DNA from: an uncultured Verrucomicrobiota bacterium
Lineage (GTDB): Bacteria > Verrucomicrobiota > Verrucomicrobiia > Opitutales > Seribacteraceae
Length of the DNA stretch: 64,000 nt
Direction of reading: 5' to 3'
Assembly (NCBI GenBank): GCA_902612125.1
Contig: CACMBV010000011.1
Location: 1 to 64,000 of the forward strand
The position numbers were made by a program, and so were the translations under genes. Each line of letters opens with the position of its first letter. Positions within the stretch are counted from its first letter, which is position 1. Shown piece by piece: positions 34,402 to 52,533 of this stretch. A model generated the notes under the pieces. The model saw nothing but the letters and a program-made list of their open reading frames with translations. It was not told where the DNA came from and did not search any database.

Positions 34402-34441
34402 GCCGATGTAGCTCAGTTGGTAGAGCATCTCATTCGTAATG
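34402..34441 (+). pseudogene. 5' half of tRNA-Thr(CGU), disrupted by the integrative element
   Basis: The sequence supplies the 5' acceptor strand GCCGATG (34402-34408), a complete D arm (GCTC...GAGC) and the 5' side of the anticodon arm with loop TTCGTAA (anticodon CGT at 34435-34437). After 34441 the sequence departs (CATAAG) and no anticodon-stem partner, T arm or acceptor 3' strand follows. The matching 3' half, which pairs exactly with this acceptor strand allowing one G-U, is at 52498-52533. Confidence 0.93.
34427..34441. repeat. attL core (15-bp direct repeat)
   Basis: ATCTCATTCGTAATG is identical to 52483-52497. It covers the anticodon-stem 5' strand and loop of the target tRNA-Thr gene. 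Flanking bases differ on both sides (C before and C after here; T before and A after at attR), so the core is exactly these 15 bp. Confidence 0.92.
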
Positions 34442-34617
34442 CATAAGTCTACCAAAATAGCACTACTTTAAAACATCTACTAAACACGCGGTATTCCCGC
34501 TTAAACAAAAGGATTTACTTCGGTGGGGCTCTTTTTTTATTGCAAGTAAATCTTATCTCTTTAAACCGAAATATACCCCTATTTCACACTTAAACTGCCA
34601 CCAAATTTGCCACCAAA
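34442..34617. other. Left-end region of the element between attL and integrase
   Basis: No gene is present. It holds an inverted repeat, GATTTACTT at 34512-34520 and AAGTAAATC at 34544-34552, and the tandem recombinase arm-like repeats at 34597-34619. The inverted repeat could be a regulatory hairpin or a protein site. Confidence 0.45.
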
Positions 34618-34619
34618 TT
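34597..34619 (+). repeat. Tandem arm-type repeats at left end, GCCACCAAATT x2
   Basis: GCCACCAAATT occurs at 34597-34607 and 34609-34619 with a 12-bp period. Near-identical tandem copies lie at the right end (52431-52450). Terminal short repeats of this kind are typical arm-type binding sites for tyrosine recombinases; binding itself is inferred. They overlap the start of the integrase gene, so the protein could repress its own gene. Confidence 0.6.
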
Positions 34620-35664
34620 GAAAACTAAGCTTACAAGGACGAAGAAGAATGGTAAGGATAAATGGCTGTTGACCCTCCATTATCAAGGGAACAGATACAG
34701 GAAATTTTTCGATAATTATCTAAAAGCAACATCTTTTGATTCTGTGTCGTGGATGAATGAAAAATTAAAGAAGATTCCTGCTGGATTAGAAACAAGAACC
34801 AATGTTGCAATAGAAGAATATCTTGAAGACTACAGAAGAAGGTATCCACGATCAAATACGCAACCCATTCAGCACAAGTTAGAGATGCTACTAAAGTGGG
34901 AGAAGATAAAAGACATTACCTTGAAATCCTTAAGTCAGACTTTAGAATTGCAGGTTGCTAGATCGGGACCCAATAAAGGTAAACTATGGACGAAGTCGTC
35001 AAGGAAGACCTATAAGACCATTTGGGAAGTTTTTCTTAGGTGGTGTCATTACAAAGATTATACTCCGCAGAAAGAATGGAATATTGAATTGCTCAATGTA
35101 AAAGAGATTCCGAGTCCGATTGGGATATTAACACCGCAACAAACTTTACAGATTCTCCGTGAGATAAAACCATCCCACCAACCTGCATTTGCACTGATGT
35201 GTTTCACGGGGATTAGACCAAATGGAGAAATGAGTAGGCTTGAGTACAAGCATATTAAATGGGGAGAGTATATTGAGATACCTGGTGAAATTGCTAAATG
35301 GGGAGAACGCACCCTCTACGATCTGCCTGAGAACTTATGGTCATGGATACCCAAGAAGAGAAGTGGTAAAGTCATGTCCTCCTGGTCAGGAGTAAATCAA
35401 TCGAGACGGCGGGCTTGCGTAAGGTTAGGATTTAAATATCCCGCGGACGGAGCAAGGCATAGCTTTGGAACATACGGATATTGGTACAAGGGAATGGAGT
35501 GGGCAATGCACACAATGGGACATTCTAATTATCAGACATTCCAAAGGTTTTATCGTAATAAGAAGGTATCTAAGGAAGTAGCACTTGAGTATTTTAAACT
35601 GGAGCCATCGACCGGAATCGAACCGGTGACCTTTCCATTACGAGTGGAATGCTCTACCAACTGA
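34618..35664 (+). CDS. Tyrosine recombinase (integrase) of the element
   Basis: A 348-residue phage-type integrase that would recombine the 15-bp core. Residues 1-50 resemble an arm-binding beta domain, ~60-160 the core-binding helical domain, and 165-330 the catalytic domain. Catalytic residues seen: Arg200 in CFTGIRPNGEMSRLEY, Arg280-His281 in DGARHSFGTY, a Gly-His pair at 301-302 (MGHSNYQTF) and the nucleophile Tyr312 in QRFYRN. The only start is TTG at 34618, just after an in-frame stop at 34591. Residues from ~328 on are encoded antisense to the element's tRNA-Thr and are probably not needed for catalysis. Confidence 0.9.
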   Translation: MKTKLTRTKKNGKDKWLLTLHYQGNRYRKFFDNYLKATSFDSVSWMNEKLKKIPAGLETRTNVAIEEYLEDYRRRYPRSNTQPIQHKLEMLLKWEKIKDITLKSLSQTLELQVARSGPNKGKLWTKSSRKTYKTIWEVFLRWCHYKDYTPQKEWNIELLNVKEIPSPIGILTPQQTLQILREIKPSHQPAFALMCFTGIRPNGEMSRLEYKHIKWGEYIEIPGEIAKWGERTLYDLPENLWSWIPKKRSGKVMSSWSGVNQSRRRACVRLGFKYPADGARHSFGTYGYWYKGMEWAMHTMGHSNYQTFQRFYRNKKVSKEVALEYFKLEPSTGIEPVTFPLRVECSTN

Positions 35665-35675
35665 GCTACGATGGC
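35600..35675 (-). tRNA. tRNA-Thr(CGU), replacement copy carried by the element
   Basis: A complete 76-nt cloverleaf with encoded CCA. Acceptor GCCATCG pairs perfectly with CGATGGC; D stem GCTC/GAGC; anticodon stem TTCCA/TGGAA with loop CTCGTAA (anticodon CGT); T stem ACCGG/CCGGT with loop TTCGATT; discriminator T then CCA. It has the same anticodon as the split host gene but different acceptor and anticodon stems, all compensated. Its last ~65 bases lie antisense to the integrase 3' end (35600-35664). A promoter-like sequence lies just upstream. Confidence 0.96.
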
Positions 35676-35685
35676 GGTCTCTTGG

Positions 35686-35715
35686 ATAGAAAAAGAAATC
35701 TTTTAGAATTGTCAA
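35686..35715 (-). promoter_or_regulatory. Likely promoter of the element tRNA-Thr
   Basis: On the minus strand a perfect -35 hexamer TTGACA (35710-35715) is followed after 18 bp by a weak -10, TTCTAT (35686-35691), 10 nt before the tRNA 5' end. The position fits a tRNA promoter; the -10 match is poor. Confidence 0.5.
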
Positions 35716-35792
35716 ACTACACAGAGCTAAAGACAGAGAAAAGATTAGAAAAATTTTGCTAAATTAAAAAAACAATTTGTTATTTCTAAAAT

Positions 35793-36008
35793 ATGGATGA
35801 TGGGAAAGTAATGAAGGTTAAGTCTGAAATGTTCGATGCATTCGAAAGGGTGCGCCCTATACTTGAGGAGTATTTAGATTCATGGGTTTTGACTGGGACT
35901 CGAGCGGGTTGCAAAACAAAGATAGTGCTGGCAGATATTGAAAAGAACTCTGTCGATATGAAGGAGCAACTCACAAATGCCCAAGAATGGAAAATAAACA
36001 AAACTTAA
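35793..36008 (+). CDS. Small unknown protein of the element
   Basis: A 71-residue protein I do not recognise (EMFDAFERVRPILEEYLDSW). It is predicted mainly helical, soluble and without signal peptide. The start could be ATG at 35793 or at 35811, the latter with a GGGAAAG-like site upstream. It overlaps the next small gene by 22 nt, so the two may form an operon. Confidence 0.5.
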   Translation: MDDGKVMKVKSEMFDAFERVRPILEEYLDSWVLTGTRAGCKTKIVLADIEKNSVDMKEQLTNAQEWKINKT

Positions 36009-36187
36009 TTGCTAAAATGCGAAACAACCAAACTAATCGTTCAATGACTCAAGAACAGGCCAAAAAAGTCGCAATAGAAGCCTGGGGTTATAAAAGGCCA
36101 AAACAGAAATTGAGTGAAGAGGACCTAAGAAATCTCAAACAATTAGAGCAAAGAGCACTCAATCTGCTCACCTTACTTGCTAAGTAG
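35987..36187 (+). CDS. Small basic helical protein of the element
   Basis: A 66-residue Lys/Gln/Leu-rich protein (SMTQEQAKKVAIEAWGYKRP, then a second helix EEDLRNLKQLEQRALNLL). It is possibly a DNA-binding or partner protein, but no family is recognised. It begins within the end of the preceding gene and overlaps the convergent 51-residue gene by 8 nt. Confidence 0.5.
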   Translation: MENKQNLIAKMRNNQTNRSMTQEQAKKVAIEAWGYKRPKQKLSEEDLRNLKQLEQRALNLLTLLAK

Positions 36188-36335: not shown

Positions 36336-36374
36336 AGCCTTTTTGACTTTTCATAATGATCTTTATGATACTTG

Positions 36375-37079
36375 TTAAGAAATTTCATCTTCAGATATAA
36401 TCCTATCATTGGTGTCAATTTCACTAAGCAAAGGTAAACACCACTTCCATATATTTGCTTTAGGCTTTTTTCCCTGCCCCCAAGCTTCTCCTTTTTCCGC
36501 AACCTCAATTATACCTGTAGATGAGAGATGGTTCAAAAACTCTGCTCCAATACTTCTTGTCTTTCCAATTCTGATTCCTAGTTGATCTCCCGATAAAGGA
36601 AAGTAAGGAGGATCGATCTTATCCTTATTCTCAGCTAGATTTCTGCAGATTCTGTAAACATCCTTAAACTCTTGTGTAAGGCTATCATACATGTCTCTTT
36701 CTTCAGGATTATGATTGAGATAGGATTTATCCATGATTTTCCACATCTCCTCAGATTCTTTCATGTGCTTGACTATGCTATCGTTAAAAAACGGTTCGTA
36801 GACTTTATGAAAAGTTTCTAAACATAGCATTACTTGATCCTTTCCGAGTCTGAAGAAACATCGGGATACTAATTTTACCAAGGACTCGTTCCTTTTTGAA
36901 AAATCAATATCAAGGCCTCTACTCACATGGGTTTTCCAGATTCTTTTAAGCGATAAATTTTTAGATAATAACCTCTCTTCAGTTTTATGGCACTTAGGGA
37001 GAATCTTTAATTTCTCCATTGATCTTTTAAACAAGTTATTAGACTTAGATGCATAGGTATAGGACATAGTCTTAGTCAC
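36375..37079 (-). CDS. Probable C-terminal part of an element replication protein (winged-helix-like)
   Basis: A 234-residue protein, starting at GTG 37079 or ATG 37067. The middle holds helical Lys/Glu-rich sequence; the C-terminal ~75 residues (YFPLSGDQLGIRIGKTRSIG, then GIIEVAEKGEAWGQGKKPKA) look like a winged helix of replication/primase-accessory type. It overlaps the 3' end of the BT4734-like gene by 8 nt. Removing one 13-bp unit of the repeat at 37088-37122 would fuse the two genes in frame, so this may be the second half of one protein. Confidence 0.6.
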   Translation of the reverse strand: MTKTMSYTYASKSNNLFKRSMEKLKILPKCHKTEERLLSKNLSLKRIWKTHVSRGLDIDFSKRNESLVKLVSRCFFRLGKDQVMLCLETFHKVYEPFFNDSIVKHMKESEEMWKIMDKSYLNHNPEERDMYDSLTQEFKDVYRICRNLAENKDKIDPPYFPLSGDQLGIRIGKTRSIGAEFLNHLSSTGIIEVAEKGEAWGQGKKPKANIWKWCLPLLSEIDTNDRIISEDEIS

Positions 37080-37722
37080 AGATAAATCTGTGTCTGTGTG
37101 CTGTGTCTGTGTGCTGTGTCTGGGGCTCTGTCTGCGACTGTGAAGTTCTTAAGGATACTATTTCATCGTCTCCGGTAAATGTCTTCATCTTAGTAGATGA
37201 TTCCTTGATCATGATCTCAGGATCATGTGAAAAGATAAACAGTGAGTGAGCAGACATAGGTGCGGTGTCCATCCTGTCTAATGGGTATGCCTTCGAAAAG
37301 TACTCCTGTGCCTCCCTAGTAGCACTCTTGTGGTTCCCTGGATTAATTGTACACAGACCTTTAACTCCGTTCCCCCTTGGGCTAATGCAAGCCATAAGCA
37401 CATGGTCATCCATGAATAATGATCTTTTAAGACTTTCGGGATTCCTTACATTATCAAAGTCTCTTTGAACAAGTCCTATATGGTTCTTAATTTTACGATT
37501 TGAGAGAGTACCTGATGGAGAAAATGCATTCATACCTGTCTTGTAGTCTTTCTTTTTATGTGAAGAGAGTTTTCGGAGTGTTTCGATGTCATCTTTAAAT
37601 TCACCAAATTTGATCCACCCCAAAACATCAGAAAGCATAATATTATCGATTTGATTTTTTTGATCTAGTCTCTCGAAGATTGACACATAAGATCCTAAAT
37701 AGGTGGAAGCTTGCGTTTTCAT
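37072..37722 (-). CDS. BT4734/VirE-N-like replication-associated protein
   Basis: A 216-residue protein. The core shows the BT4734-like (VirE N-terminal) pattern: KKKDYKTGMNAFSPSGTLSN, then the acidic strand GLVQRDFDNVRN, then MACISPRGNGVKGLCTIN. This family is found at the start of primase/helicase-like proteins of mobile elements, particularly in Bacteroidetes and PVC bacteria. The ATG at 37722 has an ideal AGGAGGT ribosome site and overlaps the excisionase-like stop (ATGA). The C-terminal tail (SQSQTEPQTQHTDTAHRHR) is encoded by a 13-bp tandem repeat and looks like frameshifted filler. Confidence 0.7.
   Translation of the reverse strand: MKTQASTYLGSYVSIFERLDQKNQIDNIMLSDVLGWIKFGEFKDDIETLRKLSSHKKKDYKTGMNAFSPSGTLSNRKIKNHIGLVQRDFDNVRNPESLKRSLFMDDHVLMACISPRGNGVKGLCTINPGNHKSATREAQEYFSKAYPLDRMDTAPMSAHSLFIFSHDPEIMIKESSTKMKTFTGDDEIVSLRTSQSQTEPQTQHTDTAHRHRFICD
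37088..37122. repeat. 13-bp tandem repeat at the junction of two replication genes
   Basis: CTGTGTCTGTGTG occurs perfectly at 37088-37100 and 37101-37113, followed by a partial copy (CTGTGTCTG) to 37122. The unit length is not a multiple of three. Deleting one unit would shift the upstream frame into the downstream one with no stop between them. Confidence 0.85.
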
Positions 37723-37985
37723 AAATCGACCTCCTGGCAATTTGAGATAAATGCGATCAGACTTTGAAAATCAACTAATCGTACGCCTCTTTTCTTTCCA
37801 TCTTTAAGAATCTGCTTGGATTTCACCGGCGGAGAGAATGAGTTCTCGGTACAAGGTGCGACGAGTCGATGCATAACTCCCCGGCTTAGTCCAGTGTGGG
37901 GGCAACGAGATCCTTGTTTTGGCAATCTTATCCAGATCGGCAAAAGCGTTGTAATATTATGTTCATTATAATTAATTTTGTCCAT
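37719..37985 (-). CDS. Excisionase-like helix-turn-helix protein
   Basis: An 88-residue small DNA-binding protein. The layout WIRLPKQGSRCPHTGLSRGV, then a basic PPVKSKQILKDGKKRGVRLV wing and a final LIAFIS helix, resembles MerR/Xis-type winged HTH proteins found beside tyrosine recombinases in PVC bacteria. It probably directs excision or regulates the element. Its stop overlaps the ATG of the BT4734-like gene. Confidence 0.65.
   Translation of the reverse strand: MDKINYNEHNITTLLPIWIRLPKQGSRCPHTGLSRGVMHRLVAPCTENSFSPPVKSKQILKDGKKRGVRLVDFQSLIAFISNCQEVDL
37729..37735 (-). promoter_or_regulatory. Strong Shine-Dalgarno fixing the start of the BT4734-like gene
   Basis: AGGAGGT ends 6 nt before the ATG at 37722. 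It decides this start over the in-frame TTG at 37740. Confidence 0.8.
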
Positions 37986-38040
37986 AAACCCATATTTGTA
38001 TTGGGCTTCTGAAAAGTCATCGGGGGAGCTAAAGAAATGT

Positions 38041-38799
38041 TTACCCCTCCGAAATTGTATAAGACTGAAAGATAGATTTCAGAGATTTTTTTATAAGATT
38101 TACCCTGTCTCTAATTGATTTCTCATCGATTAATTTAATGTTATTTTCCATCATCCAATCTAGCGTGCATGAAACGGATTCCTGTGATCTTTTATATATG
38201 CGATAAGTTCCCAAAGAATTAAGTAAGGCTTGAGAATGCTCTAGCAATTCTGTTACACCATTTGAAGATTTAACCAAGCCTTTGCCTTTTTTTAAGTTTC
38301 CAAAACGATCGCAAATATCTGGCATCTTCTTTTGTCGTTCTTGTTTAATCAATTTTTCAAATGCTTTTATGAGGTCAGGTGTTGAGTTTCTTAAATCCGC
38401 ATAGAACTTCGTTACTCCATAACAAAGGGATTCATTCATCGCGAGATCAGGAGATTCGCCAACGATACCTACTATCTTGTTATCCTTCTCAACGGATGGC
38501 TTAACTCTTAAATTAGAAATTAAACGAGCAAGTACATCGGGCTTACGAATTACCCAAAGGTTGACGGGTTCCGAAAACATTGAAAATGAAAATTCTGCGA
38601 GCTTTCTTTTTCTTGAATAATAGGATTCTGTTGGCCATTGCTTAACCGTCATAGGCCAGGCATTGCTACCAATACACTTCCTAAACTTTTCAGACTCCTG
38701 ATAAGCAGTTCGGGTTAGCTCCCATAGTATTGCATCGGTTAATCTATCTAATGAATCTTCTTTCGGGAACTGCCACTCTTTTTCTTTTAACTTTGCCAT
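38041..38799 (-). CDS. Unknown protein, first gene of the element's minus-strand operon
   Basis: A 252-residue soluble protein I do not recognise. It is rich in Lys, Arg and Glu, begins MAKLKEKEWQFPKEDSLDRL, and has an internal segment MPDICDRFGNLKKGKGLVKS and a basic C-terminal helix. It lies 55 nt upstream of the excisionase-like gene and is probably transcribed with it. A regulatory or replication role is possible from context only. Confidence 0.55.
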   Translation of the reverse strand: MAKLKEKEWQFPKEDSLDRLTDAILWELTRTAYQESEKFRKCIGSNAWPMTVKQWPTESYYSRKRKLAEFSFSMFSEPVNLWVIRKPDVLARLISNLRVKPSVEKDNKIVGIVGESPDLAMNESLCYGVTKFYADLRNSTPDLIKAFEKLIKQERQKKMPDICDRFGNLKKGKGLVKSSNGVTELLEHSQALLNSLGTYRIYKRSQESVSCTLDWMMENNIKLIDEKSIRDRVNLIKKSLKSIFQSYTISEG

Positions 38800-39115
38800 A
38801 GCATAAAACTAAATTCCCGGTTTATTTTGGTCAAAACTAGCTTATTTGAAATTAGAGAACTAAATTTTACAAAAACTAGTGGAAGTTGACTCTAGAAACC
38901 GATCTCGAACAGATAGAACATACAACAATTCATCTTTGGTTTTAATTGAAAACTATGCGAAGCATATAAGTTTATTCGAACCGAGAACGCATAGATATAC
39001 CCCTAATAAAATTAATGTATTTCGGTTGTTACACTATGTGTGTAGTGTTACAAATTTAAGTTAACGCTAGTATTTAAGGGACTTTTAGTATCCGTGGGAG
39101 CAAAAATAATGTCGT
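38800..39115. other. AT-rich divergent region in the element
   Basis: This is upstream of the minus-strand operon and of the 45-codon frame at 39116. No RNA gene, hairpin or convincing promoter was identified. The frame at 38879-39064 has poor coding quality. Confidence 0.4.
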
Positions 39116-39253
39116 ATGGCTCACAAGGAAACTGAGTACTCACTCCGTTCCACCAAGTGGACTACGATGATGGATGTCCCTGCTCGTCACTTGATCATTG
39201 AAAACTTCGACGCGAATGCCGCAGTTGCTGACTGGTCGAACTACATCACCTGA
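39116..39253 (+). CDS. Candidate 45-residue protein or gene fragment with atypical codon use
   Basis: The frame begins MAHKETEYSLRSTKWTTMMD and ends ADWSNYIT with TGA. Codons are of the highly expressed type (AAC, TTC, GAC, ATC, ACC, CGT) and much less AT-biased than the surrounding element. A GGGAG lies upstream but is better spaced for an out-of-frame ATG at 39108. It could be a genuine small protein or the leftover of a larger gene carried in from elsewhere. I recognise no family. Confidence 0.4.
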   Translation: MAHKETEYSLRSTKWTTMMDVPARHLIIENFDANAAVADWSNYIT

Positions 39254-39577
39254 TCTTAACCTTAATGATTACAACCTAATTCCTAAAGAAATTGTAAATC
39301 ATTCATTTATTTTCCGGTACTCAGAGTTGCCAAACCTTCAACTTTACGAATCAAATCTTGGGAACCTTAATCTGTGCAAAAATCTTCATTTATAAAGAAA
39401 ACAAAAAAATGAAGTTACAATAATTAAAAAAACAAGCCATTCCTATCAAACTCATCTTCTTTGACTAGGTCTAAAATAAAATCCTAAAATTCTGCCGAGT
39501 TCTAGTTGTCGGACTCGGACAAGGTGTGTAGTGGTGGAGCGAATTCTCAATACATGGCTGTCTTTAATCCAAATTGA
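39254..39577. other. Intergenic region downstream of the autotransporter gene
   Basis: No supported gene. It contains the hairpin at 39495-39518. The plus-strand frame at 39198-39395 lacks coding character. Confidence 0.4.
39495..39518 (-). terminator. Hairpin downstream of the autotransporter gene
   Basis: CCGAGT (39495-39500) and ACTCGG (39513-39518) form a 6-bp stem with a 12-nt loop. On the minus strand the stem is followed by a T-rich stretch (AATTTTAGGATTTTATTTT) about 60 nt beyond the autotransporter stop. This fits a weak intrinsic terminator. Confidence 0.55.
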
Positions 39578-42406
39578 TTAAAAAAGAATTCTAAATCCAA
39601 GATTGAGAAAGTGGGCATCAAAATCACTTTTTCCAATCATATAATCATAGTGCAAATAAACTGTTCTTCCATTCTGGTTCAATGAGGTAATTCCTGTTCC
39701 AATAAAGCCATAATCAGTGTCTTCTCGACGACCGTCAATTGTGTAAGGCTCGTTGTGTGAGAGCATCCTTACTTTTTGAGAAGTAGGATCATCGTCAAAA
39801 TCGTGTTCCCATGAAGCACGTAATTCAGGAATAAGAACATTTCCCTCAGGTTGATAATGAAAGTGAGCTATCTTTAATCCCATTGATGAAAGCAGTGAGT
39901 AATCGCTGTTTTCAAACACTTGACTTGCACTTGATGGAACTCCGTTTGAGCTTTGCGTGATCACCGATTCAGTATAATCACCCGTCTTAAATTGATCATA
40001 GGTGAAACCAATGGTCGGCGTAATAAGAAAGCTCTCATATTCTAGAACTTTACCGAAAGTTAAGCTTGCGGTGTATTGGTTGCTGTTGGGAGAAGACGAA
40101 AGTACTGCCCCTGAATTTTCTTTCCTAGTTGTTTCTGTATCGTGGAATCCAATTGAAAAGTATCCATCAATAAATGTGTCACCCGATAACCAATTACCGT
40201 AAATTCCCGCAAATAAGCTATCAGTATCGATTTCAATGCCAGACCCACTTGAGTCAGCCTTTCCAATACCTCCCATAATGCCAAAGGTAAATGATTCTGA
40301 AAGTTGCTGGTCAACGCCCAAGGTCAAGCCGTAAGAATCACCATCCATTTGTTGTAGATGGTCTTCGGTAAAAGAGGCAGAAAACTGTGCGAAAAATCCA
40401 TTCCTTGCATCAATTGCCTTTTGATCAACTGCTTTTCTCAAATACTTATCAAGAATAGAACCATTAGTTTGTGCAGTCCATTGATCATCGTTTTGTATTT
40501 CAGAAATGCTATGGGCTATTATGCCATCAAGAATATCACCCCCGGTTGGGAGCCCCATCTGAGCTAAACGTACATTAGACAATCTAGTTCTAAGATTGGA
40601 AAGCTGATTAGAAAATGATGCCTGACCTGTCTCACCAACGGCAGACAGTTCATCCGGAACAATATCGTCAATATATTGCGCAAAATGAGCATGAGAAGCA
40701 GAATTCATGGCTTCCTCATGGTGGTGCTCTTCCTTTTCGCTACCAGGCGATAAGATTACTTGCATAGCCTCCTTACCAACAGGTATCACCCCCGCATAGG
40801 TTGAAAGAACCTCCTCAATAATGGTATCCCGTTGAAATTCTTTAATCTTAGTCAAAGCAGAAACTTGCTCGGCCTCATGTGATGAACGTCTCAACCTTTG
40901 TGCCGCGTCAGTCGTTGTGTCCACTCCCAGCATATTGGTAATTTCGGAATGATGATCGAAATCATCATTTGCCTCAACATGGGCAATAAATAAAGATGGA
41001 TTAAGCTCGTTCATTTCTTCCACAATTTCTGCTGAAGAAGAAAGCCCTTCAATTTCTAAAAGAACAGATTCTCCATAGGCACTAGCAAGATCAGAAAACT
41101 GTACAGCAGCTTCGACAGGAGTTTCAGTGCCATCTGGATTTATAACCTCTACTTTGAAATTATCGCTAACAACATCTAGTACAATGATGGAGGCTATTTG
41201 TTCTCTGATATCTTCAAAATCCGTATCACCGGCTAGTCCCGTTGATTCTAAACGGTCATAATTATTAAAAATCGAATTTATATCGTGAACATCTAGATTT
41301 GCAGGATCTAAATCAAGATTCAAGGATGCTGAAAAAGATGATTTTTTTAACTGTTCAATTGCCTTGCCCGCAAGCACATCGGGTGCGGTGTCCACAGTTG
41401 CGATTTTCTCAATCACTTTTTCATCAAGAAGAAAAAGTTGTTCCACTGGGTTAACTGAAATCTGTCCGTCTATTGCTGAAGGTTTTTCTGATAACTTTGA
41501 TAACAAAAGATTACTTTGACTAGAGTTTACAATTTTAAAGAAACTTTCTTTCCTTTTTTGTACTTTAATTTTATCGGACCCAGTTTTGCTGAACACGCGG
41601 TTCAATCCAACTAAAATTGATTCGCTACTTTCTTCGACTGAAGTCAGTAAATCTAAGGTTTCTACATCTAATCCAATATCAGAGTCTGTGCACAGTTCCA
41701 GTGCCACATCAGATAGGTCTTTACCATCAACCTTAAGATCATTGTTATTAAATCTTTCAGATATCTTAAAGGCTACCTTGGCTGATTCTGAATCGTTGTC
41801 AAAATTCGTAAGCAAAAGTAACCTGTCCGATGAGTAATCGCCTAGTCTTTTTGCATCAATACCGGCATTTGTTATTAGACGAAGAACTTTTGTGGTATCA
41901 CCTTCTTTAAAGTTTTTCCCTTTTTTAATTTTACTTGTAATTTCAACTGCAACCTTCGAATCCTCGGAATCATTACCAACTGAAGAAAGGATTTTATCTA
42001 TTTCCAATAGATCGCTTGAATTTAAACCTAGTACCTTTTCGGCATCCAAATCGGTATGCTTGTCCAAAAGATCAAGTTTAGTGGTACTTGGAGAACCGTC
42101 ACCTTTATCAACATCAGTTGAATCATAGTAATGAACATTTCCAGGCTTACCGAAAGGAACATTTTTTAAGTCAGGACTTTGAGGTGAGTTTTCTGTCGGA
42201 TTTCCTGTTGGTTTATCTGAGGCTGAAGGAATTTGCAGTTTGCTGTTTTCGTCTTCGGAAGGGTTGTAGCTTGGGTTATCTCCAGGGTTAATAGATGGCT
42301 TTTCACCTATTTCAGAGACAGTGACTTGAGCAAAGCCACTACTCGGTACGATGACTATCACTGCAGTCAAATGCAGGTTAATTAGGTCTAATATAAACTT
42401 CTTCAT
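39578..42406 (-). CDS. Autotransporter (type V secretion) protein with C-terminal beta-barrel
   Basis: A 942-residue exported protein. The N-terminal signal ends near SSGFAQ. The passenger (~30-670) is Asp/Ser/Leu-rich with repeated short LLxLTNxxNDSES-like patterns and a His/Glu cluster (EKEEHHHEEAMNSASHAHFA). Residues ~680-942 form an autotransporter barrel: alternating strands such as SYGLTLGVDQQL and SFTFGIMGGIGKAD, an internal YGNWL, and a final Phe (NLGFRILF) as needed by the BAM complex. It lies 51 nt downstream of the giant gene on the same strand and may be co-transcribed as element cargo. Confidence 0.82.
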   Translation of the reverse strand: MKKFILDLINLHLTAVIVIVPSSGFAQVTVSEIGEKPSINPGDNPSYNPSEDENSKLQIPSASDKPTGNPTENSPQSPDLKNVPFGKPGNVHYYDSTDVDKGDGSPSTTKLDLLDKHTDLDAEKVLGLNSSDLLEIDKILSSVGNDSEDSKVAVEITSKIKKGKNFKEGDTTKVLRLITNAGIDAKRLGDYSSDRLLLLTNFDNDSESAKVAFKISERFNNNDLKVDGKDLSDVALELCTDSDIGLDVETLDLLTSVEESSESILVGLNRVFSKTGSDKIKVQKRKESFFKIVNSSQSNLLLSKLSEKPSAIDGQISVNPVEQLFLLDEKVIEKIATVDTAPDVLAGKAIEQLKKSSFSASLNLDLDPANLDVHDINSIFNNYDRLESTGLAGDTDFEDIREQIASIIVLDVVSDNFKVEVINPDGTETPVEAAVQFSDLASAYGESVLLEIEGLSSSAEIVEEMNELNPSLFIAHVEANDDFDHHSEITNMLGVDTTTDAAQRLRRSSHEAEQVSALTKIKEFQRDTIIEEVLSTYAGVIPVGKEAMQVILSPGSEKEEHHHEEAMNSASHAHFAQYIDDIVPDELSAVGETGQASFSNQLSNLRTRLSNVRLAQMGLPTGGDILDGIIAHSISEIQNDDQWTAQTNGSILDKYLRKAVDQKAIDARNGFFAQFSASFTEDHLQQMDGDSYGLTLGVDQQLSESFTFGIMGGIGKADSSGSGIEIDTDSLFAGIYGNWLSGDTFIDGYFSIGFHDTETTRKENSGAVLSSSPNSNQYTASLTFGKVLEYESFLITPTIGFTYDQFKTGDYTESVITQSSNGVPSSASQVFENSDYSLLSSMGLKIAHFHYQPEGNVLIPELRASWEHDFDDDPTSQKVRMLSHNEPYTIDGRREDTDYGFIGTGITSLNQNGRTVYLHYDYMIGKSDFDAHFLNLGFRILF

Positions 42407-42457
42407 GATCTAAATTTATCGGTGTGAAAATCTAATGATTTCTCCGGAATGTTGATC

Positions 42458-45400: not shown

Positions 45401-48400
45401 GCCATTGTAATCGAGTGTAAGGTCGCCTACGCGTGTTTCCTCAGAATAACCTCCATAGTCACGAGCATCTCCCTCATTGGCGGTAATAAGAAACTCAGAT
45501 GAATAAACATCCATTGCGGATGGAGGTGAAAATTCTATTATTTCAATTCCTTTCAAATATTCTGCGGAAATAACCAAGAGATCTTTTCCATTTCCACTAT
45601 CTTCGGCTGAAATATACTTCAAACCTTCAGGACTGACAAGGGATGCATTTAATTTAATCATCTCGAGGAAGACTGAATCCTTAGGGTTGGTCACATCAAA
45701 TACAGCGACAGTACTTGATCTTTCCATGGCAATAAAAGCAATGGAACGACCACCGATATTTGCAATCTCAACGCCCTCCGGTTCTGAACCCTTATCATCG
45801 GAACGACCGTCAGGGTATGAACCTACTTCGTTGGCTTTGGTATCAAGGAGGTCGCCAGAATCAAAAACCAAAGTTCCTTCATCATCGTAAATGGTGATAC
45901 TTCTGCCACCAAAGGCAAATCTTTCATCGGCACTAATGGATCCATCATCATTCTTGTCCCATGTTGTCATTTTGATACGGTCACCCCCCCCAATGGTAAG
46001 GCCAAAATCCTTGGACCGATTTTCATCGGTATATGAAATTACATCGTTATCTTCATACTCACGACCATCACCTTCATTGGCTGCAATAAAATAGGTTCTT
46101 CCATCACCGGCGGTGTAAGAATCCATACCATCTGGCATGTTTAGACCCTTAAAGGAAGCAGATCCAAAATTGACTCCAGAATCCTTATCCGTGGTGTCAA
46201 CTTTTAAGCCACCAACTGACCAGTCCTTGATCCCGGCACCCACGACTGACTCAATTTTAGGGATGTCACTAAGTAAATCAACGATGGCGATTGCGTTGTT
46301 TTCCTGCAGGGATACGAACGCTTTTTCGCCGTTTGGTGCGATGGTGACATATTCAGGTTCCAAATCCTTGGTGGGGACATTTTTATTCGGTCCACTCAGT
46401 CGCACTCCGGCAGCAGTCAAATTGGAGGCGGTGAAAGAGCTGAAATCTAACTGGTGAACAACACTGGCAGTAGGATTTTTTCTATTCAAACGAATGACAG
46501 TAATTGAACCTTCCGGATCAACGGTGTAGGCATCATTAGGCTCTCCCTCATTTGCAACCACGATGACATTTCCATCGTTGGAGAAAGCCACACTATCAGG
46601 CAATGCACCGGCAGTGAAGGTAGTTACCAAACTTGCATTCTTATCTTTCGTGGCAACTGTATAGAGAGCAACAGTTCCATTTTGGGTTTTGTCGGTGGAA
46701 TTGGAGAGTGCAATCGCCACATAACCATCTTTGACCGCAACACTCTGTGCAGTTGCACCCAAGGAAATGTTATTGGCCAAAACTGGGTTTGCGGGATTCG
46801 ATAGATCAACGGTAAGAAGATCGTTACCTCCACCCACAACATACAAAACTTTATTGGCAGGATCATAATCACTGATCTCAGCACCAGTCATCGACAAGGT
46901 TGCAATGGACCTACTCTTGTAAGAAGTAGAATCGGAACCGCCGGTAAAAGCCGTATTGCTGTAAGCAGAGTTGACCTCTTGGAATGCAGGAGGACCTGCA
47001 TTATCTATGGTAAAAGATACAATTGAATCGGGTTGGTACATACCAAAAACGGGCCAAGGGTACGGATTGTACGACTTGTCCTTATCATTGGAATCAAAAG
47101 CCAAACCCAGCGCATTGTAATCTTTATATCCCAAGGGCTTGATGTCTGTGATCGAAGAAGTCGCAAGATCAACAAAAGCCAGAGCATTGTTCTCCTGTAA
47201 AGTAACGAAAGCCTTGGTGGAATCGGCACTGATAGCCACATATTCGGGTTCCAAATCCTGGGAAACTGAAGCGTTTTTACCAAAAATGCGCACCCCTTTG
47301 GCAATCAATTCGGCTTTCTTGGAATCGTAGGCGGTAAAATCAAGGGTAGTTACTGGAAGCGTAAGGCTGGAAGACGAATCGTTACGAATCTGATTTATTT
47401 TACTGACATCAATAATGCTTATCGAACCTTTAGGATCGTTCGTGTAATCATCCGAAGGCTCACCCTCGTTAGCAACGACGAGCTTAAGACCGTCCGGGGT
47501 GAAGGTCAGGTGGTCAGGCAAGGCACCCACGGAGACCGTAGTGATGGGAGATCCTCCATTTTTAACTCTTGTATCGTAGAATAAAACACCACCGTTATTT
47601 TGTTTAACTGGTGCTTCAACCGCGACCGCCAAAATTCCATTGCTTACAGAAACAGCATTAATTCCTCCGAAAGTAGATGGTATTGGAAGGGAAAACTTAA
47701 AAGTTACAACCCCCTTGCGGTCCAGCTCCATTACATCCACCCGTTTTTCTTCTCCATTGCTTACAAAAATCCGATTCGTCAATGGATCAAATGCGGGAAC
47801 TTCCGCATAATCTTCTTTGGCAGGGTTGTAAGTGGAAAGTAAATTGAGTATTGGCTTAATTGGTGCAAAGAGTTCAGACTCGATTGAAGAGGATGTGTAA
47901 TTTGCATTGTAGGCATCCACCCGGTAAGCGTAAGACTTACCGGAAACGACTGTCTCATCCGTCCAATTGGAAACATTTGCCGATAAACTTGCTACTATAG
48001 AAAATACAGCCTCATCACTTGCTTTACGATAAACATCGTAACCTAGCTCTTGGTTATTGGTGTCTTTCCACTGAAGATGAAGGGCATCAGTGCCAGATCG
48101 GACGATCAAGTCAGAAACAGGATGGAGAGGAAAATTACCCTGCATTTGGTAGACGGTTGTAGTTCCGCTAACTTCATTGGCTACAATGAGTAAGGGTGAA
48201 CCTGTTGGGCTGTCCATTCCTGAGACAAAAACGAGACCCTCAGGGCCTAAGTCCTTGGATTTGTGCGCATTAGTAGTGTCTACAGCGTTATCATCGTCGT
48301 CTCCGACATAAGGAGCAAAGGCAAAGTCACGATTATTTACATAATCAAGGAAAACGGGTGCGTCTGGTTGGGAAATATCATATACAACCACACCTCCCAC

Positions 48401-51400
48401 TCTTTCAAGTCCGATGAAAGCATATATCTTATCGCCAATTTTTCCAATGGTTAAGCCTTCGGGCTCCGTGCCTTTATCGTCACTGCGATTGTCACCGGCG
48501 TTTACTGTATTGGAAGCGTGGTAATTGTTTGGCAGTCTCTCGCGGACGATCTTTTCCAAATCATTACCAGAATCAAAAACAAGTTTTCCATTTTCATCCC
48601 AAATCGAAAAGGAACGTCCACCATATGCGTAAATGGTTTCATAAAGACCGTCTCCGTCGGCATCTCCATTGGCCGTTGTTGTTTTGAGCCTACCCAAGTT
48701 GTCACTGTCTTTTATATCTTCGTTAGGATTGGTGTATGCTAATGAATTTGCCTCCAGAAAAGTGAGGGCTTTATGTTGGGCGGAGCCAGTAGGAACATTA
48801 CCACCAACAGGTAAGTCCAAACCAAACATGAGGATTTGACCGCCCCGATCGTTCCGGAAATTCGCAACCGGACCTCCGGATTCGGAGCGATGTTGGAGCA
48901 CACCAATGAATTTTGAATCGTTGTGATCGATTTGTTGGTTAATGGTATCCTCTTGCGTACCTGCTAATTCAGATGGAGAATAAAAGCTTCCATTCGCCTT
49001 TCTTGCAACGAGGGCAGACACATTCCAACTTCCCGAAAACTCTGAAGTTGTGGCGTAGTCAAAAGTATTCCCATATGCGGAGATTCCATAACTCGCACGA
49101 ACATTTTTATTCCCGCCTGCCTGAGCAAGAAAATAGCCGGTTGAATTAACTTCAAATGTAGTCGGATTGAGTATCAATGCGTACTTGCGTTCACCGTAAT
49201 CATTGCCTGAATCCTCATCTACAATCAAAATATCGGCGTCAGCAGTTTTAGCCCAAAAAAGTCCGTCGGGGGCCACCATTTTAGTTGCATTTTTCTCAAT
49301 GTGTTTAGCTGCTGTTTCAGTGGTGCCATTCCCAACACCTTTACCTCCCACATCCAGAGTCATGGCGCCATCAACCGCTGCAACCAAACGGGTTACATTT
49401 ACATCCAATGAAAGGGGAAGATCGCCTGATGCTGCAGTAAGTTGTGCGGCAAGATCCCCAAAGTCGAAACCAAGAAGCCCACCCTCGTCTGTCATATTTT
49501 GTATGAATCGATGCTTGGTGATATCAGGGTCCGCGGCCGGATGCTCCGTCTTGGTGTCACCGTTAAAAAAGGTGTAACCGGTTGGTTGTTCGGAAGTTTT
49601 CTCCCAGAGCATCATTTCTGTATCCTTGACTGCTTCAGGAGTATCAAATCCGTCCCAGCGGAATGAAGTTGGGTAGAATTTTCCGCTAAAATTATTACTG
49701 GCATTGGCGTCCTTCAGGTAGGCATCCATCATTTTAGCTGTTGGATCAGGAGTCGCTATCCCAAGAGTCGAGTTGTAATCTGCATTGGCAACTGCTAGTC
49801 CATAAATTTTTCCATAGAGCAAGCCGTTCCTTGATAGAAATTGGTCACGGGTACTAGCACTCGAAGTAATGACGGTACCATTTGCGTCCCTACCTTTGAT
49901 TCCGACATAAATCTTGTTAGGTGCGGGCTCCTGACCATGGTTATAACCGGCAAGAACAAGAACCACATAATCGGTATGCCCTGGGTTAATCGGCATCAGT
50001 TTTTCATAACCGGTTTGTCCAAGGGCTGGGACCGTGTATGCAGTCTCGTTCGCTATATCGACTACAATGGAAGCCAAACCCATAGTGGAGTCAGCAACAC
50101 TTTGACTGTAATTCGGAAACATATATCTGATTGACCACTCTTCCGCAGTCAACCAAACATCATCGACAAAACCCTTGCTACTCCCATAACGATTTTTCTT
50201 TTCATACCATGCCCCGCAAAAAGACTGAAAGAAAAAGTCTGCTTCGGATAATTGCATGTAATCGGCAAACTCGATAATTGTCCCGTTTTCATCGGTTTGA
50301 TTACCCCATAATCCACCTTTGTCTTTTGGAACTACTTTGTTACCAAAAACATTGTAGATGGTGTGGAAAAGCTTTCCAGAAGATTTGAACATGGAACTGG
50401 CTGGATCATTGTTTTTGAGAAAGTCAGCAAAGGCAGAACGGTCGTAATCAATGGTATGAATGTGAGAACCTGTGAAGGTTACCCCGCTGGACATTTCCCA
50501 TGGGTAAGTTTCCTTCCCCATAGTTGCGTAACTTTCAGACTGGTAGGCTACTCTGATAGTTGAATTGTCCTCCAACCATGCGGCTTGTCCATCGGGATAT
50601 CCGGTTAGTGTGTAACCGGTTTGAGGGTCAAATTCCCCAACAGTGGCAAGAGCCTTCATGTTCGAAAGATAGGGAAACTGAGTATCACCGCTTTGACCGT
50701 CCATAAGAAGGGATGCATTACCTTCGGCAGTGCTTGCCTCCGGTATCAGGGCAGTGACTTCACCGATACTTTTGAGATCACGTATGTCTGACAGGAAAGA
50801 AGCAGATGGATCGACATTTGAAATATGAGCTTTTTTCAGACCTTCTAATTTGGCCATGTCGGTGAGGCTGACGGACGGCAATTGGTTCGTATTGTTGTAG
50901 TCTAAATTGAGATCCTTGACTCTTACCTCTTCGCTGTAACCACCATAATCACGAGCATCCCCTTCATTCGCGGTTATAAAATAGTTTTTACCATTTAAGT
51001 TAAAAGAAACGACCGAATCGGGTTGATACATCCCCAACACACGCCAGGGGAATGGATTGTACCCCCCATTTATTGAATCATCTTTGTTGGAGGCATCAAA
51101 AGAAAGGCCCAGTCGACCCCAGTCCTTATATCCTAAAGGAAGTATTTCGGTAATTTCGAGATTAACCAAATCAACCACTGCAAATGCATTGTTCTCCTGC
51201 AAGGTAACGAATGCTTTTGTGTCATCTTCAGTAATCGCCACATACTCGGGCTCGAGATCCTCTGATACAGTGGCTGTGCCATTGTTACCGAAAATTCTTA
51301 CTCCCTGTGCCAAAAGCATTCCCTTCTTTGAATCAAAAGAGCTAAAATTCAAGTCGACAACATGTGCATCCACAAAGTTGCCACTTTTGTATAAATCAAT

Positions 51401-51931
51401 TACGGATATCGAACCGACTGGATCGATGGTGTAAGCATCATTTGGTTCTCCCTCGTTGGCCACCACGATTCGGTTTCCGTCATTGGTAAAAGCCAAGTGG
51501 TCGGGTAAGTAACCAACAGTGATTGTGGCTAGGGCGGATGCATTATTCTCGACGGAGGCAGAGTAGATTACGACTTTTCCTCGGTTTTGATTGTCATGCA
51601 CGGCAACAGCGACCAATCCGTTTTTCGAGGCTACCGCGTTCACCCCACTCCCGATCGAATTAAGATCAAGGTTGAACAAGTAACTTAAAGTGGGATTTCC
51701 TTTGTTGTCGGAGCCAAGTTGAAGAACTTCAACAGAGTCATTTGCATCGTTACCAACAAAAACTCTTTGCGTTAATGGATCATGTGCGGGAATCTCTGCA
51801 GCACTTTCATCAATACGATTTTCCGCACTAAGCGATGAAGTGTGGGTAGCTACAGGTTTTAAAACATTTTGGCCGCTGAGTAAGACAGCAGAGGTAAATG
51901 ACAAAAGAAGGGAAACAAGTTTTGATTTCAT
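42458..51931 (-). CDS. Giant exported protein: nested choice-of-anchor-I propellers, Fn3, 5'-nucleotidase
   Basis: A 3157-residue exported protein with signal peptide (LLLSFTSAVLLSG). Domains by approximate residue: choice-of-anchor-I first half 30-345; an unassigned ~720-residue insert (350-1070); its second half 1073-1258; Fn3 1262-1350; second choice-of-anchor-I first half 1360-1637; a third complete copy nested at 1640-2127; second half of copy two 2137-2372; Fn3 2374-2465; a 5'-nucleotidase/UshA-type enzyme 2468-3035 with LTILHANDAEQL, SAGDNLMPG, SIGNHEFDAG and VSHLQG metal motifs; a C-terminal Trp/Tyr/Gly-rich domain 3050-3157 of Opitutae type (GWLYAGGTGGASMWFYDL). It probably releases phosphate from nucleotides at the cell surface. 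The PhoX/phytase-like nature of the insert is unproven. Confidence 0.88.
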   Translation of the reverse strand: MKSKLVSLLLSFTSAVLLSGQNVLKPVATHTSSLSAENRIDESAAEIPAHDPLTQRVFVGNDANDSVEVLQLGSDNKGNPTLSYLFNLDLNSIGSGVNAVASKNGLVAVAVHDNQNRGKVVIYSASVENNASALATITVGYLPDHLAFTNDGNRIVVANEGEPNDAYTIDPVGSISVIDLYKSGNFVDAHVVDLNFSSFDSKKGMLLAQGVRIFGNNGTATVSEDLEPEYVAITEDDTKAFVTLQENNAFAVVDLVNLEITEILPLGYKDWGRLGLSFDASNKDDSINGGYNPFPWRVLGMYQPDSVVSFNLNGKNYFITANEGDARDYGGYSEEVRVKDLNLDYNNTNQLPSVSLTDMAKLEGLKKAHISNVDPSASFLSDIRDLKSIGEVTALIPEASTAEGNASLLMDGQSGDTQFPYLSNMKALATVGEFDPQTGYTLTGYPDGQAAWLEDNSTIRVAYQSESYATMGKETYPWEMSSGVTFTGSHIHTIDYDRSAFADFLKNNDPASSMFKSSGKLFHTIYNVFGNKVVPKDKGGLWGNQTDENGTIIEFADYMQLSEADFFFQSFCGAWYEKKNRYGSSKGFVDDVWLTAEEWSIRYMFPNYSQSVADSTMGLASIVVDIANETAYTVPALGQTGYEKLMPINPGHTDYVVLVLAGYNHGQEPAPNKIYVGIKGRDANGTVITSSASTRDQFLSRNGLLYGKIYGLAVANADYNSTLGIATPDPTAKMMDAYLKDANASNNFSGKFYPTSFRWDGFDTPEAVKDTEMMLWEKTSEQPTGYTFFNGDTKTEHPAADPDITKHRFIQNMTDEGGLLGFDFGDLAAQLTAASGDLPLSLDVNVTRLVAAVDGAMTLDVGGKGVGNGTTETAAKHIEKNATKMVAPDGLFWAKTADADILIVDEDSGNDYGERKYALILNPTTFEVNSTGYFLAQAGGNKNVRASYGISAYGNTFDYATTSEFSGSWNVSALVARKANGSFYSPSELAGTQEDTINQQIDHNDSKFIGVLQHRSESGGPVANFRNDRGGQILMFGLDLPVGGNVPTGSAQHKALTFLEANSLAYTNPNEDIKDSDNLGRLKTTTANGDADGDGLYETIYAYGGRSFSIWDENGKLVFDSGNDLEKIVRERLPNNYHASNTVNAGDNRSDDKGTEPEGLTIGKIGDKIYAFIGLERVGGVVVYDISQPDAPVFLDYVNNRDFAFAPYVGDDDDNAVDTTNAHKSKDLGPEGLVFVSGMDSPTGSPLLIVANEVSGTTTVYQMQGNFPLHPVSDLIVRSGTDALHLQWKDTNNQELGYDVYRKASDEAVFSIVASLSANVSNWTDETVVSGKSYAYRVDAYNANYTSSSIESELFAPIKPILNLLSTYNPAKEDYAEVPAFDPLTNRIFVSNGEEKRVDVMELDRKGVVTFKFSLPIPSTFGGINAVSVSNGILAVAVEAPVKQNNGGVLFYDTRVKNGGSPITTVSVGALPDHLTFTPDGLKLVVANEGEPSDDYTNDPKGSISIIDVSKINQIRNDSSSSLTLPVTTLDFTAYDSKKAELIAKGVRIFGKNASVSQDLEPEYVAISADSTKAFVTLQENNALAFVDLATSSITDIKPLGYKDYNALGLAFDSNDKDKSYNPYPWPVFGMYQPDSIVSFTIDNAGPPAFQEVNSAYSNTAFTGGSDSTSYKSRSIATLSMTGAEISDYDPANKVLYVVGGGNDLLTVDLSNPANPVLANNISLGATAQSVAVKDGYVAIALSNSTDKTQNGTVALYTVATKDKNASLVTTFTAGALPDSVAFSNDGNVIVVANEGEPNDAYTVDPEGSITVIRLNRKNPTASVVHQLDFSSFTASNLTAAGVRLSGPNKNVPTKDLEPEYVTIAPNGEKAFVSLQENNAIAIVDLLSDIPKIESVVGAGIKDWSVGGLKVDTTDKDSGVNFGSASFKGLNMPDGMDSYTAGDGRTYFIAANEGDGREYEDNDVISYTDENRSKDFGLTIGGGDRIKMTTWDKNDDGSISADERFAFGGRSITIYDDEGTLVFDSGDLLDTKANEVGSYPDGRSDDKGSEPEGVEIANIGGRSIAFIAMERSSTVAVFDVTNPKDSVFLEMIKLNASLVSPEGLKYISAEDSGNGKDLLVISAEYLKGIEIIEFSPPSAMDVYSSEFLITANEGDARDYGGYSEETRVGDLTLDYNGTGLHKFSPDYPDAEQSLTADKFNLSRLKTTTANGDIDGDGKYEEIYSYGARSFSIWSAKDGSLVYDSGVDLEKIVQQTYPDKFNIDDDDVDKRSDDKGVEPEGLAVGKVDGRTFAFIGLERQSGIIIYDVTDPLQPQFVQYANNRDYSKDFDSKEAGDVGPEGLTFVSADNSPTGYPLLIVTNEVSGSTSVWGMSNLPVGPVKGLNIHQDADVSILSWDDTSSVENGFIIYRQEGIGSPFEEIGRVGRNVTTFYDAQVQPGESYMYKVNAYNEISESKLSQVKVAQADLRLTILHANDAEQLMPTALGDGYYGGAAMFISKIKDLRSEFNSKGHGVLSISAGDNLMPGRELSASLGGDSLYHSMFLDQAGFEFVSIGNHEFDAGPDVTASFIKSAKYPTFLSSNLDFSAHKPLNDLFTTNKIVKSTQVDVTIAGKTIKVGLVGATTKNLNFISSPSPVVVDANVAGSVQAEVDSLTANGAKLVILVSHLQGVSEELTLLTQLSGVDVVIAGGGDNRLANPSDKLIPGESAEGSYPLIGLDKDGSAVPVVTVDGQLKYIGRLTLNITSSGEVTGWNGGPQRIVDSGIDQFHGTSPDIIAYETIENPIEKYVSSLSAQKISNEISFALDGGKDDIRSRETNLGNLVADSQLWVAQAYAKDKNAPVADVALANGGGIRASINESRSSNYKASVDDTYTVLPFGNIVTVVPDVSAAEFKLLLENAYSKTVLSDGKPKREGDGTGRFAQIAGFRVEYDIEANPMIMDNNGIVTQQGVRVVNATMIDGKKIIENGIPADNMSLNVAIVDFLADNKGDQYFTFRSGAINNVKLGFTYQAALAEYISVGLKGDLSKYSQTDGRIKFNAKASSDGAKASSASGFFPGARKIEGDWKELSWFGTFWDKEFPWIYHAEHGWLYAGGTGGASMWFYDLQTGWWWTNEQHYPYVYLDSVKDWVFYQSNTQSNSRFFYLFSDGGKWVTYPQSGQ

Positions 51932-52482
51932 AATAATAGAAGGGAAATTTACTTCTATAATTTTGTTTCCTTGTTTTTACTTTAAAAAAGTAACAACCGA
52001 GCAATATAAGAGTGGGCTCAAATTTCACTAATTTTGTATCATAAAAGTAACTTTAATTTTTCTTCCTTTGAAACCTTCTCATTTGCCCATCAAAATTGTC
52101 CCGAAAAAGTAATGTCGGATTTGAAATGGATCTAGACTTTATATGTTTTGACTTTTGTCTTTTAGGTATTGTCACCCTGAATAATTCTTTCTGAAGTAAC
52201 CGGACTACCATCTTTTTGCCCCTGGATATTTTAAATGTTAAAATTTTTTTCCAAAGGGATCTTAAGCATATAGTCCTTTTCAGCCTATTCCCTCAATATT
52301 TGAAGTAATTTAAAGTATATCCACAACGGATCCGCTCTGCCAGTTTTTGTATATCTACTTCCTTCATCATATAAAATCAGCTCAACTTATTGTAACTTCA
52401 TTTATTTTATAGCGAGGATTAAACCATGTTGCCACCTAATTGCCACTATTATGCTTAAGTAATTGATAGATAATACTATATT
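51932..52482. other. Right-end region of the element upstream of the giant gene
   Basis: A 551-bp AT-rich stretch. It should hold the promoter of the giant gene near 51932-52050, but no clear -35/-10 pair or Shine-Dalgarno was found. Arm-type repeats lie at 52431-52450. No gene was recognised. Confidence 0.45.
52431..52450 (+). repeat. Arm-type repeats at the right end
   Basis: GCCACCTAATT (52431-52441) followed directly by GCCACTATT (52442-52450) mirrors the GCCACCAAATT pair at the left end, in the same orientation. This supports both ends belonging to one element and one recombinase. Confidence 0.6.
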
Positions 52483-52533
52483 ATCTCATTCGTAATGAGG
52501 GGGTCACCGGTTCGAATCCGGTCGTCGGCTCCA
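52483..52533 (+). pseudogene. attR core and 3' half of tRNA-Thr(CGU)
   Basis: The core ATCTCATTCGTAATG (52483-52497) is followed by the anticodon-stem end, variable loop, T arm ACCGG-TTCGAAT-CCGGT (52506-52522), acceptor 3' strand CGTCGGC (52523-52529), discriminator T and CCA (to 52533). The acceptor pairs with GCCGATG at 34402-34408. Upstream of the core there is no D arm or acceptor 5' strand, so this half is not a functional tRNA. Confidence 0.92.

Follow-up and report, generated by a model that had tools for sequence, protein, structure and literature searches.

The window analysed here, a 64,000-nucleotide stretch of DNA from an uncultured Verrucomicrobiota bacterium, contains an 18-kb phage-derived integrative element that breaks a chromosomal tRNA-Thr(CGU) gene and very probably makes good the loss with a tRNA of its own, as in tRNA-dependent lysogeny. 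In the proposed mechanism, a tyrosine integrase would insert the element into the anticodon arm of the host gene. Because attP shares just 15 bp with the gene, integration would destroy it, and a complete tRNA-Thr(CGU) carried by the element, whose gene runs antisense to the end of the integrase gene (int) and overlaps it, would compensate. Sequence comparison demonstrates the broken gene, its intact allele in relatives, the short core, the carried cognate tRNA, and the recurrence of this pairing of tRNA and integrase in phages with related integrases. Expression and charging of the carried tRNA, and its part in keeping integrants fit, are inferred.

The host gene is cut in its anticodon arm. 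The 5′ half (nucleotides 1–40) lies at the left junction, at 34402–34441 on the plus strand, and the 3′ half (nucleotides 26–76) at the right junction, at 52483–52533 on the same strand. Both contain a 15-bp core, ATCTCATTCGTAATG, duplicated at 34427–34441 and 52483–52497 (plus strand), which comprises the anticodon stem, the loop and two further bases. The first-pass annotation had given these halves and their shared core, and its coordinates were correct on re-check. When the flanks were joined in silico, ARAGORN called a single 76-nt tRNA-Thr(CGT); no tRNA was called in the left junction alone or in the right junction alone. This bears out the earlier claims that the element truly interrupts the gene and that neither end rebuilds it; the split stands, as no whole tRNA can be read at attL. 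The right half alone scored 29.2 bits against the Rfam tRNA model, just at the cut-off of 29 bits. In 500 mononucleotide shuffles of the two 500-bp junction regions, none reached an exact match of 15 bp, the longest being 14 bp.

Uninterrupted alleles were found in four sister genomes (G016, G022, G024 and G019), which also settles the earlier question of whether relatives hold any intact allele; together with the split gene they place attB inside the host tRNA gene. At the empty site of G019 both flanks are collinear with the window. The joined gene has T6 where G016, G022 and G024 have C6 in their intact allele, the single difference over 76 positions. In a sister species, G036, this tRNA gene is occupied by the same element, with element ends 99–100% identical to those of the window and chromosomal flanks about 75–93% identical. 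Assembly error was ruled out because this second species, assembled separately, has the identical arrangement. The G036 record was the only return when the genome contigs were searched with the integrase, and searches of the order (273 genomes) and the class (384 genomes) added only distant integrases.

The carried tRNA-Thr(CGU) occupies 35600–35675 on the minus strand (Rfam score 74.1 bits) and is the only tRNA that ARAGORN called in the window. It is a divergent tRNA-Thr(CGU) gene with the anticodon of the broken host gene, and the final codons of int are read from its complement. The first-pass annotation had overlooked this gene. A possible −35 box, TTGACA, lies upstream at 35710–35715 (minus strand); it was found by sequence inspection, and the promoter scan called neither this box nor any promoter for the carried tRNA. 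The same motif stands upstream of the tRNA in another genome, G034, which is discussed below.

The integrase (34618–35664, plus strand; 348 aa, TTG start) is of the phage type, matching a PHROG integrase family with an E value of 6.9e-14, and had no match in Pfam. Residues R200, R280, H302 and Y312, which we take to be the catalytic residues, are invariant in a three-row alignment. On the same strand follow a 71-aa gene (35793–36008), which directly follows int in related phages as well (20 distinct viral records by tblastn), and a 56-aa ORF (36017–36187), to which the record of phage contig L089 has a relative at 56% identity. The minus strand encodes ORFs of 234 aa (36375–37079) and 252 aa (38041–38799), both lacking Pfam and PHROG matches, and a primase-like fragment (37072–37740) with a BT4734-like N domain and a match to PHROG DNA primase/helicase. 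A 51-codon remnant at 39110–39262 (plus strand), also present in G036, corresponds to the C-terminus of a 614-aa protein of L089. The remainder is cargo on the minus strand: a 942-aa protein with an autotransporter beta-domain (39578–42406) and a 3157-aa protein with choice-of-anchor I and 5′-nucleotidase C-terminal domains (42458–51931). Among the features of PICI-like satellites (int, primase, no structural genes, a helper phage), the element has int and the primase-like fragment. Since only phage remnants are left and most phage genes are gone, lysogeny in the strict sense cannot be claimed for this copy.

Related integrases are also encoded by phage contigs. L089 has an integrase 83% identical to that of the window; its tRNA likewise lies antisense to int, and its attP, with a 20-bp core, is un-integrated. 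The contig also contains a terminase large subunit, a weak portal match and DnaB. In four further phage contigs, L143, G693, G692 and G695, two of which have the same integrase, each record pairs a related integrase with a complete tRNA-Thr(CGU), the attP cores being 21, 10, 11 and 11 bp respectively. In 23 of 27 integrase upstream regions of relatives we found either half of a tRNA or a rebuilt one; three regions have the core only, and all three are accompanied by a complete tRNA-Thr(CGU). The family shows three modes, namely rebuilding by the tRNA 3′ half, rebuilding by the 5′ half, and outright replacement of the tRNA, and the replacing state occupies two places on integrase trees that come with long-branch warnings. 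With the three modes side by side and replacement in two tree places, how replacement evolved, still an open question in PMC10865867, becomes testable. Other searches added less. A phage collection returned one weak match only. The pattern TCTCATTCGTAATGAG had 18 viral matches, including the L089 record; integrase queries matched nothing in the loci of the other 17, several of which are ordinary tRNA-Thr genes or fragments. An initial search of viral contigs for a tRNA-Thr(CGU) pattern gave at least 120 stretches, and 84 among the matches listed are a common tRNA of another lineage.

The first-pass annotation had supposed that the host depends on another CGU-type tRNA or else on wobble by tRNA-Thr(UGU). 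That claim lost its support with the intact tRNA-Thr(CGU) that the element supplies 1.2 kb inside its left end, and the carried copy probably covers the loss of the host gene. A reading in which the gene is simply broken, the cell survives with a different CGU tRNA of the chromosome or through such wobble, and the carried tRNA is incidental is nevertheless worth weighing, although we consider it unlikely. The carried tRNA is the sole CGU tRNA found in the window genome, G000, but this genome is 64% complete and a second may therefore be unseen. Of the 27 genus genomes, 12 lacked a match to the CGU tRNA pattern, and the tRNA may therefore be less than essential; three of the 12 are at least 90% complete (G017, G025 and G027), although in G025 and G027 pieces of tRNA-Thr are present at contig ends or in fragments. 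Wobble may also play a part: the sister species G036 has a UGU-reading match (G036:C12, two mismatches to the pattern). Against an incidental role, the element holds a complete tRNA with the very anticodon of the broken gene, related phages that target the same gene do likewise, and the carried tRNA is nearly unchanged outside its anticodon arm. Between the window and L089 none of its 59 positions outside the arm differs, and four of five anticodon-stem pairs have changed with pairing kept, although the surrounding int-tRNA DNA is 85% identical; this conservation favours the preferred reading.

If instead the carried tRNA served lytic growth, by supplying codons or resisting tRNA-cutting defences, its match to the broken gene would be coincidence. 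PMC10865867 discusses functions of this kind for phage tRNAs, and about 9–10 kb separate the tRNA from int in L143 and L282, where the two do not adjoin. We regard this as quite improbable: in the records of L089, L143 and L194 one tRNA was found, Thr(CGU), which is the isotype matched by the attP cores of L089 and L143, and two near-core-only clades both carry tRNA-Thr(CGU). An archaeal-type split tRNA, with half genes transcribed apart and joined in trans, might be suggested by the good preservation of the halves and their pairing with each other. It can be rejected with near certainty, as sisters hold a continuous gene and a complete tRNA is present in the element; moreover, both halves include the 15-bp core that site-specific integration duplicated, and in the 5′ half of G036 A7 faces C66 as a mismatch.

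A more tentative proposal, to which we give somewhat less than even weight, is that the element’s tRNA acts as a ‘recoded rescue’ gene, with compensated changes in the anticodon arm, that it can permanently displace the host gene, and that G034 holds a domesticated copy. The anticodon arm is the integrase site, so compensated changes there would keep the element from recombining with, or re-targeting, the rescue copy that it carries; such an element could not be lost piecemeal, and its tRNA could thus displace the host gene for good. The carried tRNAs of the window and L089 differ at 9 of 17 positions of the anticodon arm and at 0 of 59 positions elsewhere. Host gene and attP share 10–21 nt; carried tRNA and attP share 7–8 nt in the window, L089 and L143, and no stretch of at least 7 nt in L303–L305. 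Both comparisons favour recoding as judged from sequence. The other tRNA pairs compared, which had no excess of anticodon-arm changes, weaken it, and so do five actinophages, in which carried tRNA and attP share 7 (LeBron), 7 (Fionnbharth), 9 (Clautastrophe), 10 (OneUp) and 11 nt (Baudelaire), the value for OneUp being as long as its published core (PMC10865867); a simple scan of Gaia gave no clear core. Universal recoding of carried tRNAs is unsupported, the actinophages being mixed. Domestication in G034 is suggested by its single CGU match, which carries a tRNA body found elsewhere in 2 of 372 order genomes (both inside this element) and in seven viral contigs. A decayed copy stands beside this match, and 14 bp that follow the copy agree with the int end. 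G034, a genome 70% complete, could instead resemble the donor of the carried tRNA.

The preferred reading, a broken host gene compensated by the carried tRNA, warns that a seemingly broken tRNA gene can be compensated within the very element that breaks it. In canonical tRNA-integrating islands and prophages, an attP tRNA half rebuilds the gene (Islander). The window element resembles these in that its tyrosine integrase adjoins an att site in a tRNA gene, but its attP shares 15 bp and contains no tRNA half, neither junction is rebuilt, and a whole tRNA is carried. The element fits tRNA-dependent lysogeny, described in 2024 for the actinobacteriophages Fionnbharth, Gabriela, Gaia and others, where in mycobacteriophages the carried tRNA is required for viable integrants (PMC10865867). 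Shared with that system, as far as this source describes it, are the tyrosine integrase, the short core in a host tRNA gene, the absence of a rebuilt tRNA and the carried cognate tRNA; in Fionnbharth, too, the tRNA is antisense to a gene end, lengthening that protein by 18 aa. Unlike the actinophage cases, the present one lies in Verrucomicrobiota, involves Thr-CGU and has the tRNA overlapping the integrase gene itself; the copy in the window is decayed, bears a cargo of large surface proteins and has kept both integrase and tRNA. We found no such Verrucomicrobiota case in a literature search covering titles and abstract openings, with most subscription journals outside its reach. Judging by sequence, the new features are the integrase/tRNA overlap, the retention in a decayed element, and carried-tRNA anticodon arms that no longer match the integrase target. 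Rhizobial phage-related sequences, as reported in PMC11476347, likewise inactivate a host tRNA gene on integration and replace it with their own isoacceptor, but in another phylum and with another tRNA. Integration dependent on a carried tRNA, proved in actinobacteriophages and reported in rhizobia in these sources, would thus extend to marine Verrucomicrobiota.

The first-pass annotation had the host tRNA-Thr(CGU) gene split by the element, and this was borne out: nucleotides 1-40 of the tRNA lie at 34402-34441 and nucleotides 26-76 at 52483-52533, both on contig C11 of the assembly. The two halves overlap in a 15-bp core that is present at each junction. The two 500-bp junction regions share no longer exact match than this, and none of 500 mononucleotide shuffles reached its length. 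Joining the flanks in a script gave one 76-nt tRNA-Thr(CGT), while neither the left nor the right junction yielded a tRNA alone. The G+C content is 41% within the element and 46% in each flank. An uninterrupted allele was found in four of the 27 genomes of the genus searched, G016, G022 and G024 (97-99% over the aligned query) and G019 (94%), and was called as tRNA-Thr(CGT) by ARAGORN in all four. In G019, both flanks are collinear around the intact gene (left, pieces within window positions 28504-33543; right, within 53073-58201). The sister species G036 has the same element inserted in the same tRNA gene. Comparison of the two at 500-bp intervals gave 98.6-100% identity for the element ends (34500-35999 and 43000-52499), 80-96% for the aligned parts of the middle, in which 40000-41999 is unaligned, and ~75-93% for the chromosomal flanks. 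Each broken gene deviates from the intact allele at a single place (T6 in G000, the genome of the window; A7 in G036), which hints, from n = 2 cases only, that constraint on the halves may have relaxed.

What that annotation overlooked is a complete tRNA-Thr(CGT) inside the element, at 35600-35675 on the minus strand, the one tRNA called by ARAGORN in the whole window. It runs antisense to the 3′ end of the integrase gene, whose final codons are read from its complement. It scores 74.1 bits with Rfam, ranking third among 24 matches in G000. A further CGU tRNA was looked for in this genome (84 contigs, 64% complete) and none was found. The viral contig IMGVR_UViG_3300017911_001490 (L089, 80.6 kb) encodes an integrase 83% identical to that of the window and has a complete tRNA-Thr(CGU), also antisense, in the same place; the L089 integrase stop codon falls within it. 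In the distant relative L027, the integrase terminates at the corresponding point, without a tRNA-derived extension. Because the region upstream of the L089 integrase gene matches the host gene over 20 bp and lacks a tRNA half, it was read as an un-integrated attP. L089 also has a DnaB helicase gene upstream; downstream are a terminase large subunit gene and an SU10-portal match that is weak and does not reach its cut-off.

Besides its phage-type integrase gene, the element carries a 71-aa gene that occurs immediately 3′ of the integrase gene in 20 separate viral records, and a 56-aa ORF for which the L089 record has a relative. Also present are a primase-like fragment, two large genes for surface proteins and the last 51 codons left of a 614-aa phage protein, a remnant that G036 shares. 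Most plausibly this is a decayed prophage or phage-derived element, though it may be a satellite. Half of the element is taken up by a 3157-aa choice-of-anchor I/5′-nucleotidase-C protein (42458-51931), 99-100% identical in G036.

Scanning viral contigs with an integrase alignment of three rows yielded 39 loci. The attP was examined at 22 of these and in L089 (the same record as L091), leaving out 16 partial or distant loci; adding the window, L143, L027 and L028 brought the set to 27 upstream regions, some of which are near-identical. Of these, 15 contain the 3′ half of a tRNA (Arg-ACG, Pro-TGG or Phe-GAA), and L112 has a partial Arg 3′ half located further off. Five (L092-L096) have the tRNA-Thr(UGU) 5′ half in reverse orientation, two (L027, L028) have a whole tRNA-Phe at the junction, and L108 has hardly any sequence upstream. 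An element-derived core only was seen in three, the window, L089 and L143, each with a complete tRNA-Thr(CGU); the 40-nt upstream match of the window consists of host DNA and the 15-bp core. In the L092-L096 records, searched in full, no complete tRNA passed the Rfam cut-off, although these records may be fragments. Their 5′ half is the opposite of the usual 3′-half rebuild.

The body pattern of the carried tRNA matched seven viral contigs, including the L089 record. Three of the other six (G692, G693 and G695) have a related integrase and cores of 10-11 bp, with identical integrase and upstream sequence in G692 and G695; an integrase was sought in G593, G694 and G696, which may be fragments, and none was seen. 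Within the order, three of 372 genomes have the same body (G000, G036 and G034). On the main integrase tree (22 rows), the replacing state, a core-only attP with a whole carried tRNA, falls in two supported clades: one joins the window and L089 (100/100); the other joins L143, L303 and L304 (99/98) and groups with the Thr(UGU) 5′-half rebuilders (99/97). At least two changes of state, in either direction, are needed. Replacers formed one group in 0% of 200 bootstrap trees, and an earlier 25-row tree was concordant (3%); both trees gave long-branch warnings for other rows.

The integrase-tRNA stretch is 85% identical between the window and L089. The two tRNAs differ at 0/59 positions outside the anticodon arm (positions 27-43), for which the chance at 15% divergence is ~7e-5, and at 9/17 within it (Fisher p = 1.7e-7), with four of five anticodon-stem pairs altered on both sides and pairing preserved. 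Other pairs gave a mixed pattern, the window differing in the arm and elsewhere at 0/17 and 6/59 from L143, 6/17 and 6/59 from the host type A tRNA, and 7/17 and 1/59 from G034. The marine phage contigs L143, L194 and L281-L285 have the carried tRNA's anticodon arm in common, and the L143 acceptor stem is unlike the others; it looks as if tRNA arms were swapped as modules.

The match of the host allele to attP is 15 nt long in the window, 20 in L089, 21 in L143, 10 in L303 and 11 in L304 and L305. For the carried tRNA, the match lies in the anticodon region and is 8, 7 and 8 nt long in the window, L089 and L143, and no match of ≥7 nt to attP was seen in L303, L304 or L305. For actinophages, the corresponding match is 7 nt in LeBron and Fionnbharth (repeated in Eponine), 9 in Clautastrophe, 11 in Baudelaire and 10 in OneUp; PMC10865867 gives attP-attB cores of 17 (LeBron), 10 (Fionnbharth), 14 (Baudelaire) and 10 (OneUp). 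Divergence of the carried tRNA from the integrase target is thus common but not universal. Foreign acquisition of the carried tRNA could also account for this divergence.

An intact tRNA-Thr(CGU) in G034 (L068:10560-12660 = G034:C2:90559-92659) has a phage-type body and an upstream stretch resembling that of the window's carried tRNA (83% over 133 columns); ~1.8 kb away is a decayed copy, then a 14-bp match to the integrase gene end. This tRNA may be a domesticated element tRNA. Another element lies in a tRNA-Thr(CGU) gene of G038 (L067:6320-14357, contig C6), with a duplicated 5′ half ~8 kb from the intact tRNA and one serine-recombinase-like and one integrase-like ORF (named by eye) in its interior; a similar 5′ half is present in G027 (L076). 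G016 has a second tRNA-Thr(CGU) (L306:952-1026, G016:C100); it lies on a contig of polysaccharide-like genes and is possibly foreign or a contaminant.

A CGU tRNA match was absent in 12 of the 27 genomes of the genus, and tRNA-Thr(CGU) therefore may not be strictly essential. In a rhizobial case (PMC11476347), an inactivated tRNA is reported to be replaced by an isoacceptor from the element. Guerrero-Bustamante and Hatfull (PMC10865867) take three features to define tRNA-dependent lysogeny: the core is short, no tRNA is rebuilt, and the phage brings a cognate tRNA, the requirement for which they proved genetically. In Fionnbharth, this tRNA runs antisense to a gene's end and extends the encoded protein by 18 aa. 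By its sequence, the window element has all three defining features of tRNA-dependent lysogeny.
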